DNA of 28,973 nucleotides from a virus: positions 1 through 28,973 of the IMG/VR virus record IMGVR_UViG_3300015366_000132, one strand, 5' to 3'. Positions 20,500 through 25,110 of the stretch are shown here, in pieces. The notes below the pieces were generated by a model, which saw only the letters and a program-made list of their open reading frames with translations, ran no database searches and was not told where the DNA came from. Position numbers and translations under genes: made by a program. Every line of letters begins with the position of its first letter. Positions within the stretch are counted from its first letter, which is position 1.

Positions 20500-20518
20500 A
20501 CTATAACATAAAATTAAA
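20500..20518 (-). promoter_or_regulatory. Leftward early promoter, extended -10 element
   Basis: On the minus strand this reads TTTAATTTTATGTTATAGT, ending in an extended -10 (TG-T-TATAGT). The same element occurs on the plus strand at 24796-24814 with one substitution. No good -35 is present at normal spacing, as expected for an extended -10 promoter. The expected start is near 20493. Confidence 0.65.
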
Positions 20519-20529
20519 ACAATAGGCGT

Positions 20530-20562
20530 TTGTTGCAATTTAACAAAAAGTTATTGTAAAAT
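20530..20562 (+). promoter_or_regulatory. Dyad operator candidate overlapping a rightward promoter
   Basis: TTGTT (20530-20534) and AACAA (20542-20546) flank a 7-base centre. A rightward promoter overlaps it: -35 TTGCAA (20533-20538), 18-base spacer, -10 TAAAAT (20557-20562). Transcription would start near 20570 and reach the repressor gene at 20662 after about 90 bases of leader. A regulator bound at the dyad would block this promoter. Confidence 0.5.
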
Positions 20563-20661
20563 TCAGGACGTTGGCAATACGTAATACGGGTTAGCGCCGT
20601 ATGTAAGTTTGTACACACTGCTTTATGTGAAGCGTGTTGCCAGCAACTGTAAGGAAAAACA

Positions 20662-20862
20662 ATGACTCTGACGGAATACTTCTCAACAGAGCCACGGGGA
20701 TCCAAGATTGAAATGGCCGAGCACCTCGGTATTTCCCAGACGTGGCTGTCACTCATCATGAGTGGGCGTAAGCGCGCATCTGCCACCCTTTGTTTGAAGA
20801 TCGAAGATGCCACGCAAAAACTAGTTACGAGAAAAGAGTTGAGACCAGATATATTTTTGTGA
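20662..20862 (+). CDS. Cro/YdaS-like helix-turn-helix regulator
   Basis: The 66-residue protein contains a helix-turn-helix, K-I-E-M-A-E-H-L-G-I-S-Q-T-W-L-S-L-I-M-S-G (about 15-35). It ends with A-T-L-C-L-K-I-E-D-A-T, then L-R-P-D-I-F. The E-x-A-T and L-R-P-D endings are typical of YdaS/Cro-family regulators, which act as dimers on short operators. It is the only gene in the divergent control region and should set the balance between the leftward and rightward operons. AAGGAAAAACA precedes the ATG. No second repressor or integrase is visible, so temperate behaviour cannot be concluded. Confidence 0.8.
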   Translation: MTLTEYFSTEPRGSKIEMAEHLGISQTWLSLIMSGRKRASATLCLKIEDATQKLVTRKELRPDIFL

Positions 20863-20868
20863 TATAGT
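20839..20868 (+). promoter_or_regulatory. Promoter of element A / replication operon
   Basis: -35 TTGAGA (20839-20844), 18-base spacer, -10 TATAGT (20863-20868) preceded by TGA, so it is also an extended -10. Both boxes overlap the 3' end of the regulator gene. Transcription should start near 20874-20876, exactly at the first paired base of the RNA structure that follows. Confidence 0.65.
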
Positions 20869-20873
20869 TATTC

Positions 20874-20980
20874 AACGCTTGGCGGCGTTTTGTAGTGAGC
20901 TTCAGCCTAGGAACTGGGTGTACTACACACCTCCGCCAACATCCCACAAGGATGAGTTCCTAGCCTGAAGCTTTTTTTTT
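20874..20980 (+). ncRNA. Element A: structured RNA with two possible pseudoknots, leader of the ParB-helicase operon
   Basis: Hairpin H1 AACGC/GCGTT (20874-20878 with 20885-20889) exposes loop TTGGCG. That loop is complementary to CGCCAA (20934-20939). GTAGT (20892-20896) is complementary to ACTAC (20922-20926), the loop of hairpin P3 GGTGT/ACACC (20917-20931). P4 is CATCC/GGATG (20940-20954). The closing stem P2 pairs 20898-20914 with 20956-20972 at 16 of 17 positions, with one C-C mismatch. Nine T residues follow. The H1-loop and P3-loop pairings are nested in one another but cross P2. Almost every base is in a helix. The T-run is one base before the ribosome site of the next gene, so the RNA is either a free small RNA or a termination-controlled leader. 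Structure is seen in sequence; function is unknown. Confidence 0.65.
20898..20980 (+). terminator. Long-stem terminator or attenuator closing element A
   Basis: The 17-position stem with one mismatch encloses about 41 bases and is followed by T9 (20972-20980). Next comes GGAGAAAAAT and the ATG of the ParB-like gene. Reading through would be required to express the replication operon from the promoter at 20839, so this stem is well placed for attenuation. Confidence 0.6.
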
Positions 20981-20990
20981 GGAGAAAAAT

Positions 20991-21803
20991 ATGAGAGAAC
21001 AACACGCACTGAGTAAAGCATTCCCTCCGATGACAGATGAGGAATTTCAAGTTTTACAAGACAGCATAGAAGATTTAGGCGTTCAACAGCCTATTGTGAT
21101 TTTTGAAGACAAGGTCATAGATGGGTGGCATCGATATACCGCGGCAAATGAGCTTGGTATGCCATGCCCAGAGGTGGAACTAGAAGATGACATTGATCCC
21201 CGCAATTTTGTTTTGTCTCAGAACAAAGCTAGGCGTCATCTCACTAAAAGCCAATTGGCATTGTCTTATACCAAGGTTTATGAGTGGCAACCATCTGCCC
21301 AAAAAGCATCTAGGATGGAACTGGGTTCCACCATAAAAACCAATCAAGAATTAGCCGAGTTAGCAGGCACTAGCACTAAAACAATTCAACAGGCCAAGAC
21401 CGTTCTTACCAAAGGCGACGAAGAGGTCGTCAAGGCTGTAGAGGCTGGAAAGATCAGCGTCAAACGTGGCGCGCAGATCGCCAAGTTGCCCAAGGAACAG
21501 CAGGCAAAAGCCATTACTGAGTCGCCAGAGCCACGGCCTTCAATTTTGGACGGCACCGAGCCCAGCGAGGATGAATTAAAAGCTAATGAAATGGCCATGC
21601 AGGCTGATTTGGATGCTCTGAACAAGCTCCTTGAGGCAGACGATGCCCTGGCAACTGCCCATGCTGAAATCAAGCGCTTAAACTATTTGGTCGCCCAAAA
21701 AGAGGTTCGGATTGCGGCGATCATGAAAGAAAAAAGTGAATGTATTAAATTGTGTAAGAGCCTACAGTCCCAGTTAGATAAGATTCATAGGAACAAAAAA
21801 TGA
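20991..21803 (+). CDS. ParB-like DNA-binding protein
   Basis: From ATG 20991 (GGAG six bases upstream) the 270-residue protein has a ParB/sulfiredoxin-like N-terminal domain: M-T-D-E-E-F-Q-V-L-Q-D-S-I-E-D-L-G (14-30), Q-P-I-V-I-F (33-38) and V-I-D-G-W-H-R-Y-T-A-A-N-E-L-G (42-56). A helix-turn-helix follows at 118-139 (N-Q-E-L-A-E-L-A-G-T-S-T-K-T-I-Q) and the ParB-type segment A-G-K-I-S-V-K-R-G-A-Q-I-A-K-L (152-166). The C-terminus (205-265) is a coiled coil. It heads the replication operon and overlaps the helicase by 4 bases. Roles in origin recognition, segregation-like functions or transcription control are all possible. Confidence 0.8.
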   Translation: MREQHALSKAFPPMTDEEFQVLQDSIEDLGVQQPIVIFEDKVIDGWHRYTAANELGMPCPEVELEDDIDPRNFVLSQNKARRHLTKSQLALSYTKVYEWQPSAQKASRMELGSTIKTNQELAELAGTSTKTIQQAKTVLTKGDEEVVKAVEAGKISVKRGAQIAKLPKEQQAKAITESPEPRPSILDGTEPSEDELKANEMAMQADLDALNKLLEADDALATAHAEIKRLNYLVAQKEVRIAAIMKEKSECIKLCKSLQSQLDKIHRNKK

Positions 21804-23329
21804 GCGAAATCCTAGCCCCAAGTGAGGGTAATGATGGAACAAAATTCCCAAAACCAAGACCATTTCAACTATCAGCCCACGAACAACTTCGTAATGGCTT
21901 CAAGGCTGGACATAAGCGCCAGTTAATCATGGCACCTACAGGTGCAGGCAAGACCTACCTTGGTCTACGCATCTGTAACGAGGCTATTCAAAAGGGTAAG
22001 CGGGCAGTATTTCTGTGCGACCGTACTACCCTTATTAACCAGACGTCTGAGGTGGCTGACTCTTATGGCTTGGAAGAGCATGGTGTCATCCAGGCTAACC
22101 ATTGGCGCAGAATGCCTGACAAGCTCCTCCAGGTGGCGTCGGCTCAGACTATTGCCAAGCGTGAGTATTGGCCTGCGCTGGACGTCTTAGTCGTTGATGA
22201 AGCTCACACCCAGTACAAGGTATGGACAGAGTATGCGGTTGAATGTGGCGCGGCCGTTATAGGTCTGTCTGCTACTCCGTTTAGTCCTGGGCTCGGTAAG
22301 ATATTTACCAATCTGATTAACGCAACCACCATGCACGATTTAACCGAGTCGGGTGTGTTGGTACCTATGCGGATATTTAGTTGTACTAAGCCTGACATGA
22401 CGGGCGCCGCAACGAAAGGCGGTGAGTGGACAGACAAGGCCGCTGAAGAGCGTGAGATGGGGATTATTGGTGATGTAGTCAATGAGTGGTTAAACTTTGC
22501 TGAAAACCGCAAGACGATTGTTTTTGGGGCAACGATTAAGCATTGTGAGGAGTTGTGTCGTTCATTCATCAGCCAGGGGGTTATGGCCGCGGTGTTTACG
22601 TCTAATACGACAGCTAAAGAGCGCGAGGATCTACTGGAGGAGTACAGAAAGCCTGATAGCTACCTCAAGGTGTTGATCAGCGTAGAGGCTTTGGCGAAGG
22701 GATTTGATGTGCCTGACGTTGGATGTGTGTGTGATGCTAGGCCTTTGCGCAAGAGTCTGTCTACAGCCATCCAGATGTGGGGGCGCGGTCTTCGCAGTTC
22801 GCCTGATACGGGTAAGAAAGATTGTTATCTTCTGGACTTTAGCGGGAATATTATTCGCTTTGCTGAAGACTTTACAGATATATTTTTCAATGGTTTGTCT
22901 GAGTTGGACAGCGGAGAGAAGTTAGATAAGAAGATTCGCAAAGATGAAGATTATGAACTCAAGGGTTGTCCTAAATGTGGTTACAAGCCGTTTACAAAAA
23001 GGTGTATGGGGTGTGGCTATGAGCGTCCTGGTCGTGCGATGGAGGATGCTTTGCCTGGACACATGAAGGAGATCTATATTGGCGAGGGTAAGAATAAGAA
23101 GAAGCTTGCAGACAATGCTGAGCACTTATGGGCGCAAGTAGTGACGTATGCCCGTGCGCACAGTAAACCAGAGAACCAACAGGGTAGGGCTTGGCATTTA
23201 TTTAAAAGAATTACGGGGCAGGCGCCAACTTGGATGTTCTCAACTCAGAAAAATGTTGAAATAACGCGTAACGTACACAACAAAATAACACAGATGAACA
23301 TGGCTTGGAAAAAAGGACAACAGAGATGA
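21800..23329 (+). CDS. SF2 DNA helicase (DEAH/ResIII type) with zinc ribbon
   Basis: The 509-residue protein has Walker A A-P-T-G-A-G-K-T (45-52), motif II D-E-A-H (133-136) and motif III S-A-T-P (157-160). Helicase C-domain motifs follow: K-T-I-V-F-G-A-T (238-245), G-F-D-V-P-D-V (301-307) and Q-M-W-G-R-G-L-R (325-332). A four-cysteine zinc ribbon is at C390, C393, C402 and C405. The tail beyond 410 is specific to this type of phage helicase. It uses ATP to unwind or remodel DNA at replication forks or recombination intermediates. Position between a ParB-like protein and a primase indicates a replication role. Confidence 0.9.
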   Translation: MSEILAPSEGNDGTKFPKPRPFQLSAHEQLRNGFKAGHKRQLIMAPTGAGKTYLGLRICNEAIQKGKRAVFLCDRTTLINQTSEVADSYGLEEHGVIQANHWRRMPDKLLQVASAQTIAKREYWPALDVLVVDEAHTQYKVWTEYAVECGAAVIGLSATPFSPGLGKIFTNLINATTMHDLTESGVLVPMRIFSCTKPDMTGAATKGGEWTDKAAEEREMGIIGDVVNEWLNFAENRKTIVFGATIKHCEELCRSFISQGVMAAVFTSNTTAKEREDLLEEYRKPDSYLKVLISVEALAKGFDVPDVGCVCDARPLRKSLSTAIQMWGRGLRSSPDTGKKDCYLLDFSGNIIRFAEDFTDIFFNGLSELDSGEKLDKKIRKDEDYELKGCPKCGYKPFTKRCMGCGYERPGRAMEDALPGHMKEIYIGEGKNKKKLADNAEHLWAQVVTYARAHSKPENQQGRAWHLFKRITGQAPTWMFSTQKNVEITRNVHNKITQMNMAWKKGQQR

Positions 23330-23490
23330 AACCAACAACACTAGAAGCATTAATTTATAACAGAGAAGCTAGACTTAAGGACAGAATAGAAAGGCTAGGC
23401 GGTCTAAAAGACAAGATCAGGTTAGAAGAGGTACGTTATATAAAGAAGCTCATGCAAGAGATATTAAGGAACAAGAATGAACTTTGTTGA
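23326..23490 (+). CDS. Small basic helical protein, 54 residues
   Basis: ATG 23326 overlaps the helicase stop (ATGA). The product is one long charged helix (A-L-I-Y-N-R-E-A-R-L-K-D-R-I-E-R-L-G-G-L-K-D-K-I to K-K-L-M-Q-E-I-L). The high Lys/Arg content would allow nucleic acid or partner binding, but I recognise no family. It overlaps the primase gene by 14 bases, consistent with coupled translation. Confidence 0.6.
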   Translation: MKPTTLEALIYNREARLKDRIERLGGLKDKIRLEEVRYIKKLMQEILRNKNELC

Positions 23491-24349
23491 TTTTGCTAGA
23501 GCACATGGGGTGGAGATTGATTATTCGCAACTCTACCCATCTGACAGGATTCGAAGGTGTGGGACGGTTGATAAGCCTAACTCTACTAACGGCGCATTCT
23601 TTTACGACGGTGGGCGCGGTTGGGTGTTTAACTGGTCAGGCGAGGCTCGCGTGTGTTGGTTTGAATCTGACAAGCCTTGGACTGATGCTGAAAAGCGTGA
23701 GTGGGCTGTTAAGCGCCAGCAGGCAAGCTCTGAAAAAGACAGATCTTATGAGATTGCCGCGCAAAAGGCTGACGTCATTTTGCGATTGGCCAAGATGGAG
23801 CCACATCCCTACCTAGAGATAAAAGGGTTTAAAGACATGAAGGCGCTGGTGCTGGAGGACAAGCTCTTGATCCCTATGCGTAACGTAGTGACAGATAAAA
23901 TCCAGGGATACCAACAGATCTATTGGGACCAGGAGGCTAGAAAGTACGAAAAGAAGATGCTCCACGGCATGAGGGCTAAGAATGCTGTGCTGTGTATGGG
24001 TCCTAGAGAAGCCTTAGAGATTTGGTTTGTTGAAGGGTATGCTACAGGTCTATCGGTACACAAAGCGCTCCGTAGCATGGGATTACACGGCTCGGTGGTG
24101 GTTTGTTTCTCGGCATCTAACCTGGTGCAGGTGGCTGACCAGTTGAAGGGTGATAGGTTTGTTTTTGCAGATAACGATTTGAGCAAAACTGGAGAACAAT
24201 CGGCAATAAGTACTGGTTTGCCTTGGACGATGGCAGATGAGTGTGGTATGGACGCCAACGACCTGCACAAAAAGAAAGGTTTGATGGCTGTACAAAAGAA
24301 AATTATGGATTTACGAAAAGAGGTCTTGACACGGCTTGCAACGGTATAG
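23477..24349 (+). CDS. TOPRIM-domain DNA primase
   Basis: The 290-residue protein has an N-terminal part with R-R-C-G-T and a G-A-F-F-Y-D-G-G-R-G-W-V-F-N-W segment (about 39-53), reminiscent of small zinc-less primase starts. The link is H-P-Y-L-E-I-K-G-F (110-118), L-L-I-P-M-R-N (130-136) and I-Q-G-Y-Q-Q-I-Y (142-149). The TOPRIM domain has F-V-E-G-Y-A-T-G-L-S (184-193, Glu186) and F-A-D-N-D (230-234), then A-N-D-L-H-K-K-K-G (260-268). It should lay RNA primers for phage DNA synthesis. AAGGAACAAGA precedes the ATG. A consensus promoter overlaps its last codons. Confidence 0.85.
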   Translation: MNFVDFARAHGVEIDYSQLYPSDRIRRCGTVDKPNSTNGAFFYDGGRGWVFNWSGEARVCWFESDKPWTDAEKREWAVKRQQASSEKDRSYEIAAQKADVILRLAKMEPHPYLEIKGFKDMKALVLEDKLLIPMRNVVTDKIQGYQQIYWDQEARKYEKKMLHGMRAKNAVLCMGPREALEIWFVEGYATGLSVHKALRSMGLHGSVVVCFSASNLVQVADQLKGDRFVFADNDLSKTGEQSAISTGLPWTMADECGMDANDLHKKKGLMAVQKKIMDLRKEVLTRLATV

Positions 24350-24356
24350 TTATAAT
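24326..24356 (+). promoter_or_regulatory. Consensus promoter for element B
   Basis: TTGACA (24326-24331) and TATAAT (24351-24356) both match the sigma70 consensus exactly, with a 19-base spacer. The -35 and spacer lie in the primase coding end and the stop codon falls in the spacer. Expected start near 24363, two bases before the first paired base of element B. Confidence 0.75.
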
Positions 24357-24364
24357 TGTCATAT

Positions 24365-24510
24365 CGACGGGTTTGGTACCCCGTTGTAGTTTCAGTACAA
24401 ACGATCCGCAAGCCCATTGGTGAGCGGGCTTCGTCAAAGCTAAAGGTGCGTGGTACTGCACCCCTTTATGCGGCAACCAAGCCTAAAGCTCGTTCACCAA
24501 TGGGTTTTTT
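24365..24510 (+). ncRNA. Element B: structured RNA homologous in plan to element A
   Basis: Hairpin H1 pairs 24365-24372 with 24378-24386 (one bulged C, one G-U) around loop TTGGT, which is complementary to ACCAA (24476-24480). AGTAC (24394-24398) is complementary to GTACT (24453-24457), the loop end of hairpin P3 GGTGC/GCACC (24445-24462). The closing stem P2 pairs 24411-24431 with 24486-24506, 21 consecutive pairs including three G-U, and runs into T6 (24505-24510). The order of helices is the same as in element A, and both share a GTAGT segment just after H1. P4 of element A has no clear equivalent. No convincing gene overlaps it; the 89-codon frame from 24356 has unrelated composition. 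Confidence 0.65.
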
Positions 24511-24765
24511 GCTTTGTGGCCTTACCCGCCAAATCGGACGCGTATCGGCAGTAGCGATTTGGGGATACCTCTACTACGGGATAGATGTTGAGAGAGAGGC
24601 AAGGGTGGCGAAGATAGCGCCCTAACATCGAACGGCTGTCGGGTCATGTGGCTCCAGTTGGCAAACATGTGAAGGCTTAGCCCCTATGGGGAGGGCTGAG
24701 TCTGTCCACCAGTCAGCAATCAAAAGAAAGTGTTTAGAGAATGTTGAACAATTACTAGAAAATAC
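24511..24765 (+). other. Gene-free, structure-rich region downstream of element B
   Basis: Hairpins visible here include CCAAATCG/CGATTTGG (24529-24536 with 24555-24562) and GGCG/CGCC around 24607-24621. Another is CATGT/ACATG (24645-24649 with 24665-24669), whose loop holds TTGGC. A long stem CTTAGCCCC/GGGG-A-GGGCTGAG spans 24676-24700. CCGCCAA at 24526-24532 is identical to the segment of element A that pairs with its H1 loop. The last 45 bases are AT-rich and unstructured. With the terminator at 24766, the whole 24363-24785 could be one RNA of about 420 bases. I see no tRNA, tmRNA, RNase P or intron signature. Confidence 0.45.
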
Positions 24766-24785
24766 GGGGGATGCCCCCTTTTTTT
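24766..24785 (+). terminator. Rho-independent terminator
   Basis: GGGGG (24766-24770), loop ATG, CCCCC (24774-24778), then seven T residues. It closes the gene-free region and separates it from the right-hand operon. Confidence 0.9.
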
Positions 24786-24795
24786 GTTTAAATGC

Positions 24796-24814
24796 TTTAA
24801 TTTAATGTTATAGT
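24796..24814 (+). promoter_or_regulatory. Rightward promoter of the right-hand operon, extended -10 element
   Basis: TTTAATTTAATGTTATAGT matches the leftward promoter element at 20500-20518 at 18 of 19 positions and has the extended -10 TGTTATAGT. It lies ten bases after the terminator and about 40 bases before the first gene of the operon. A weak TTGTTT at 24784-24789 is 19 bases upstream of the -10. Confidence 0.65.
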
Positions 24815-24852
24815 ATGGTTACCACGATGTGTGGGTTTGATGGAGAGAAAAA

Positions 24853-25110
24853 ATGGAAAGAAACATGAGAAAAGCTTTTAACAAGTTGCAGAAGATGGGA
24901 TGCCCTGTGTATGAGCACCCAGATGACGGCAATAATTTTAGTATTGATGCTGAGCATCCTGAGAGTTATAGGTGGTGTGATTACTGGAATGAGAGCAGTC
25001 TTGTTTGGGATGGTGAGACAACCAATCCTAAGATTGATAAAGTTTTAAATCCACTTGGATTATTTGCTGAGTGGCACAACCCTGGGCGCATTGCGGTGTA
25101 CAACATATGA
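24853..25110 (+). CDS. Conserved-looking phage protein, 85 residues
   Basis: The protein begins M-E-R-N-M-R-K-A-F-N-K-L-Q-K-M-G-C-P-V-Y-E-H. It then has S-I-D-A-E-H-P-E-S-Y-R-W-C-D-Y-W-N-E and ends K-V-L-N-P-L-G-L-F-A-E-W-H-N-P-G-R-I-A-V-Y. The R-A-F-N-x-L-x-x-x-G-x-P-V-Y start and G-L-F-A-E-W-x-N-P-G ending mark a small phage family of unknown function. GGAG six bases before ATG 24853 supports this start. It is the first gene after the right-hand promoter and overlaps the next by 4 bases. Confidence 0.7.
   Translation: MERNMRKAFNKLQKMGCPVYEHPDDGNNFSIDAEHPESYRWCDYWNESSLVWDGETTNPKIDKVLNPLGLFAEWHNPGRIAVYNI

Follow-up and report, generated by a model that had tools for sequence, protein, structure and literature searches.

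Element A, a predicted double-pseudoknot RNA with a terminator directly before DNA-replication genes of freshwater phages

Element A (20874-20980, plus strand) is, as judged from comparative sequence analysis, a previously undescribed small RNA of freshwater phages that contains two pseudoknots and a terminator and lies directly before DNA-replication genes. The same analysis places A and a second RNA of this phage, element B (24365-24510, plus strand), each in its own structured RNA family, and the fold z-scores of the two are -4.2 and -6.1, respectively. Our preferred reading, to which we give a probability of roughly 0.55, is that A is a cis-acting leader that would work as a conditional terminator and meter expression of the replication genes, with the pseudoknots allowing read-through, and that B is not its partner.

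The window (the whole stretch of DNA analysed, 28,973 bases from one IMG/VR virus record) carries, in order and all on the plus strand, a YdaS/Cro-like gene, A, ParB-like, helicase and primase genes, B, and a Betaproteobacteria-1 RNA. The first gene (20662-20862) encodes a small HTH protein (Pfam YdaS_toxin, 1.6e-13; PHROG transcriptional repressor), and its stop codon overlaps the extended -10 region of A. The ParB-like gene (20991-21803; PHROG ParB-like partition protein, 2.9e-27), whose ribosome-binding site is immediately 3' of the A terminator, is followed by a DEAD/ResIII helicase gene (21800-23329; Pfam ResIII, 2.3e-18; PHROG DNA helicase, 6.9e-77) and a primase-like (Toprim) gene (23477-24349; PHROG DNA primase, 3.5e-28).

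The structure of A consists of helices P1, P2, P3 and P4 and two pseudoknots, with 41 pairs altogether. Hairpin P1 (20874-20889; AACGC/GCGTT) sits at the expected transcription start and is paired in 99.6% of alignment cells. Its loop holds the 5' strand of pseudoknot 1, TTGGCG (20879-20884), which pairs with CGCCAA at 20934-20939; the 5' strand of pseudoknot 2, GTAGT (20892-20896), pairs with ACTAC (20922-20926) in the loop of P3, and is joined straight to the P2 stem with a linker of 0 nt. The terminator hairpin P2 and its T run span 20898-20980, and 97.8% of P2 cells are paired. The two P2 strands (20898-20915/20955-20972) are 18 nt each with a central 1x1 mismatch, and they enclose P3 (20917-20931), the 3' strand of pseudoknot 1 and P4 (20941-20953), with the T run extending to 20980. 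In all 54 of 54 distinct rows the 5' strand of P2 is 18 nt long, with the mismatch near its middle.

Support for this fold comes from a model-made alignment (A5) of 56 distinct sequences, which leans towards the nested helices because these were fitted to the model, and in which the 41-pair structure has standard pairs in 98.0% of cells, compared with 73.3% after shuffling and 34-41% with slid partners. Two-sided changes are found at 36 of the 41 pairs, so that relatives with compensatory changes do exist, and the covariation is 0.662 (0.182 shuffled). The pseudoknots are absent from the covariance model used for this alignment. For pseudoknot 1, 100% of cells are paired across the 56 sequences, with two-sided changes at four of six pairs, and nearly all of the sequences have the identical hexamers UUGGCG/CGCCAA, the loop pair that the initial annotation had identified. 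The exceptions are UUGGUC/GACCAA in L028 and CUGCAA/UUGCAG in L113:4024-4143. For pseudoknot 2, 94.5% of cells are paired, five of six pairs show two-sided changes, and covariation is 0.689 (0.228 shuffled). The contig L113 has two A-type elements (L113:2214-2323 and L113:4024-4143), and it is the second of these in which the pseudoknot 1 pair is wholly changed (CTGCAA/TTGCAG in the DNA).

A promoter consensus scan gives a putative promoter for A at 20839-20868 (TTGAGA-18-TATAGT, with an extended -10, TG). The -10 box ends 6-9 nt upstream of P1 in 51 of 59 A elements and has a mean match of 4.9 of 6 (3.25 shuffled); in the same 59 elements the -35 is no better than shuffled. At the other end, at least six T occur in the next nine nt after the GC-rich stem in 53 of 54 elements, as in an intrinsic terminator. 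The start codon of the following gene lies 14-21 nt past the terminator stem in 46 of 52 cases, whereas start-codon distances after family B1, to which B belongs, are broadly spread (8 to >500 nt). These positions identify A as a predicted leader tied to the start of the following gene, unlike B1. The tested proteins encoded 3' of A are mostly replication proteins (ParB-like, DUF1376/primosomal, O-like, DnaD-like loader, and replication initiation), which bears out the proposed link to replication genes, and the occurrence of different protein families behind one leader is the best indication that the following gene is what A serves. Homing-type endonuclease genes also occur right after A, HNH-like in L199, L154 and L117 and GIY-YIG-like in L180 and L167, and these keep the same spacing to the A terminator. 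In one public phage record (MW202544.1; L290:1702-1944), a hypothetical protein is annotated opposite an A element, on the other strand; this is probably a spurious gene call.

When viral contigs were scanned with the primase and helicase proteins, the gene order of the window was recovered in more than 80 loci; A occupies the regulator-ParB gap in 21 non-duplicate helicase loci, window included. Pattern and profile searches gave further A elements in other phages, with 60 matches to covariance model R1 among the matches listed, 56 of them distinct; the broad pattern scan mixed real with chance matches, and the real ones were sorted out with nhmmer and model R1. No A turned up in a run over 88 further loci, mostly B1-carrying, so false positives for A are rare. 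For B1, 83 stretches in viral contigs have an exact core match, and the loci searched contain 62 full-strength matches to model R2. Whole-record searches gave at most one A and at most one full-strength B1 per record; weak opposite-strand B1 matches are the hairpin read backwards. Among 84,980 sequenced cellular genomes, the B1 core gave a single match, in a Flavobacterium contig; on direct reading it was judged to be chance, and it has no match to model R2. B1 was not found in isolate phages or plasmids. Among phage records, A was found in two Manatee Spring records by one of three queries and in none by the other two, and a search of plasmids gave no A.

Related phages that have no A usually leave a very short gap between the regulator and ParB genes. 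A short hairpin-plus-T, e.g. ACCCGATGTTGGGTTTTT, is present just before the ParB ribosome-binding site in 13 of 47 A-less phages (L001, L022, L039, L050 and others).

Element B matches model R2 with 152 bits and is predicted to be a separate, strongly promoted, self-terminating and free-standing sRNA in the slot behind the primase gene. Its promoter (TTGACA-19-TATAAT, 24326-24356) has both -35 and -10 hexamers, as does B1 generally, and the mean -35 match in the family is 4.9 of 6 (3.2 shuffled). P1 lies at 24365-24386, and its loop provides the TTGGT strand (24373-24377) of pseudoknot 1, which pairs with ACCAA (24476-24480). Pseudoknot 2 is formed by AGTAC (24394-24398) and GTACT (24453-24457), P3 spans 24441-24468, and a 19-bp terminator stem (24413-24431/24486-24504) is followed by T6. 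In L234, L217 and L249, members of the family have TGGC/GCCA in pseudoknot 1 in place of TGGT/ACCA. In 58 of 61 distinct B1 elements, despite very variable sequence, a best-complement search gave an unbroken run of five to seven pairs for pseudoknot 2; the mean run is 5.98, compared with 4.27 when partners are exchanged. The relatives conserve an outer stem (AAAGG/CCTTT in the window) and an inner stem of 3-4 bp, not the GGTGC/GCACC stem that had been drawn for B. The single-stranded linker between the pseudoknot 2 strand and the terminator stem is longer in B1 than in A, so that exclusion between pseudoknot and terminator is not expected in B1.

The initial annotation regarded A and B as paralogues that bracket a replication operon and as candidate members of a new pseudoknotted RNA family. 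The pairings it drew for the two elements are present where it placed them, with within-family covariation far above shuffled and slid controls, and the candidacy as new, pseudoknotted families stands, given the covariation in 56 A sequences and pseudoknot 2 in 58 of 61 B1 elements, with no match in Rfam 15. Paralogy finds no support in the models: with the A model B reaches 9.1 bits (E 1.3), and with the B model A reaches 8.0 bits (E 2.2), both among background matches, so the general design that A and B share is no evidence of common descent. Nor do they form a pair, since A occurs with B1, B2 or B3 (in 7, 6 and 8 loci, respectively) and the B RNAs also occur without A (8, 26 and 2 loci). 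The base changes between A and B had been offered as covariation; they are not valid as such, because A and B are not alignable homologues, and the valid evidence lies within each family. GTAGT after the first hairpin does form a pseudoknot strand in A. The TAGT that follows P1 in B, by contrast, is an unpaired flank of near-constant sequence, which makes the shared motif a coincidence. An Rfam 15 search of 20500-24900, up to E 5, gave only RF02932, outside A and B, and no C4 antisense RNA or riboswitch match; on 11 related loci, at the gathering threshold, no Rfam family matched A or B.

B2 and B3 are two further RNA families that replace B behind the primase gene (L018:3718-3839, L011:6585-6676 and about 50 other loci). 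Each has a strong promoter and a 5' hairpin, the loop of which finds its complement within the terminator hairpin; the mean run of this pairing is 7.4 for B3 (4.76 shuffled) and, with imperfect hairpin picking, 6.2 for B2 (5.1 shuffled). The Betaproteobacteria-1 RNA (RF02932) is directly 3' of B in the window (24527-24644; Rfam 101.4 bits, E 2.7e-18) and adjoins the B slot also at L083:11066-11183, L013:8902-9019 and L029:8575-8692, so that here phages carry this Rfam family; sequence like it seems to extend about 75 nt past the end of the Rfam model. Where this RNA is absent, the B slot is followed by a conserved non-coding sequence, CCGTACTCCGCACG...CTAGGGGGC (L024:4929-5133 and about 35 other loci), which has also carried the label R2 and is distinct from covariance model R2. 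Parts of it resemble tRNA and are repeated in tandem; ARAGORN calls no tRNA there, and it has no Rfam match at the gathering threshold. tRNA genes are found in the non-coding island near the B slot at L028:9348-9869, L025:6257-6423 and L022:9142-9296.

Pseudoknot 2 is the fastest-changing helix among those measured in B1: its mean pairwise difference per site is 0.615, while the P3 flanks differ by 0.499, the two P1 arms by 0.246 and 0.185, and one segment of the core by 0.011. Of 21 B1 pairs with near-identical promoter spacers, most differ at pseudoknot 2 (mean, 42% of sites), and by this yardstick the case for diversifying selection is suggestive. It is not decisive by the wider flanks: when the 120-nt flanks are at least 88% identical, 18 of 77 B1 pairs differ at pseudoknot 2, many of the 77 being identical or duplicate records, and in several of the 18 much of the remaining RNA is replaced too. 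Since the flank comparisons show unchanged pairs together with pairs in which the RNA was replaced, recombination can also explain the differences. One conceivable role for B1 pseudoknot 2, which we regard as improbable, is that of a self/non-self barcode, in which loop and complement change in step between close relatives, so that the RNA of one phage would recognise, through dimerisation or pairing in trans, no kind but its own; if true, this would give RNA-based superinfection or copy-number specificity.

In the mechanism that we favour for A, transcription would start at hairpin P1 from A's own -10 promoter, and the leader would end in the terminator, with the replication gene's ribosome-binding site directly behind it. 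The P3 loop is expected to emerge before the 3' half of the terminator, so that pseudoknot 2, and then pseudoknot 1, could form first. Eighteen base pairs of A-form RNA measure about 50 Å. With the 5' strand of pseudoknot 2 attached directly to one end of the 18-nt stem and its partner at the far end, a steric estimate suggests that pseudoknot 2 is incompatible with pairing in the lower half of the terminator. Pseudoknotted A would let the polymerase read into the replication gene; with the pseudoknots lost, transcription would end at A and a short RNA would be released, and some signal would set the level of read-through. No alternative antiterminator helix that uses the 3' terminator strand is visible in A, so read-through would have to come from steric exclusion, a protein, or kinetics.

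A different explanation, unlikely in our view, is that A is a trans-acting sRNA (a regulator or a decoy for host factors) whose position before the replication genes reflects early expression and compact packing. The promoter and strong terminator of A would yield a discrete RNA of roughly 105 nt, the almost invariant sequence of pseudoknot 1 is as expected of a protein site, and B1, B2 and B3 are free-standing RNAs of like general design. The tight spacing between A and the start codon could be mere compact packing of an sRNA gene; however, A is fixed to the gene start within a few nt, over unrelated genes, and B1 is not.

Self-limiting copy control, in which terminated A RNA would pair in trans with nascent A and favour termination as genome copies rise, strikes us as quite improbable. 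A carries both a loop and its complement, which covary as a private pair, and the genes downstream are replication genes. Such control would resemble Gifsy-1 IsrK in layout, as well as phage P4 CI RNA and pT181 countertranscript attenuation. P4 CI RNA and P1 c4 RNA are short leader-derived RNAs that control early or replication gene expression, and the C4 family is in Rfam, unlike A and B, which match no family there. In IsrK of the Gifsy-1 prophage, a phage promoter, a structured sRNA and a terminator precede a gene reached by read-through, and PMC4825925 indicates that an RNA so arranged can affect, in trans, the transcript that reads through its own terminator. IsrK acts on an antQ locus, the cited passages describe no double pseudoknot for it, and the likeness to A is one of layout. 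Against copy control of this kind, no specificity turnover is seen at pseudoknot 2 of A, which close phage pairs usually keep unchanged, and a consensus scan found no minus-strand promoter-like site near 20870-21050.

That scan also bears on the IncI-like antisense system suggested in the initial annotation, which is not borne out: at the end of A there is an intrinsic terminator instead. In the repZ/repA leader of the IncI-complex plasmid ColIb-P9, a UUGGCG loop pairs with a distal CGCCAA in a pseudoknot; like A, it is a leader RNA before a replication gene. The UUGGCG loop motif of ColIb-P9 is named in the title of a paper cited in PMC10724649. Unlike this leader, A has an intrinsic terminator and a second pseudoknot, and its CGCCAA is part of the terminator hairpin, in the window some 50 nt upstream of the start codon, and not at the ribosome-binding site. 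The match may be convergence. Coupling of a pseudoknotted 5' domain to the folding of an intrinsic terminator during transcription is described for the fluoride riboswitch in the cited part of PMC11077080; in A, unlike the riboswitch, the pseudoknot strands are inside and beside the terminator hairpin itself, and there is no riboswitch match in Rfam.

Very unlikely, we think, is a put-like processive antitermination RNA that would modify RNA polymerase as soon as early transcription begins. A begins at a promoter and a terminator follows at once, and HK022 likewise makes a pair of structured early RNAs that work without any phage protein, the cis-acting put RNAs, which occur twice per genome and are linked to termination control (PMC9378689). 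As presented in the cited part of that paper, however, put RNAs are about 70 nt, consist of two stem-loops, are mutually similar in sequence, and have no terminator described at their end, whereas the A terminator stem belongs to the structure and A is found in one place per genome. That A is only a promoter and an insulating terminator, with pseudoknots that merely stabilise the RNA end, is scarcely credible: the short hairpins in the same gap of A-less phages would fit, but the fixed 18-nt stem strand, the two covarying pseudoknots and the near-invariant UUGGCG/CGCCAA exceed a terminator's needs.

A and B1 are thus two strongly supported phage RNA families that are missing from Rfam, and the A family is tied to replication gene starts across unrelated replication systems. 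If the reading of pseudoknot versus terminator is true, A would be a compact RNA device that meters phage replication. That A shares its key loop pair with the pseudoknot of IncI plasmid replication would mark either a striking convergence of replication control in phages and plasmids or a kinship that has been lost.
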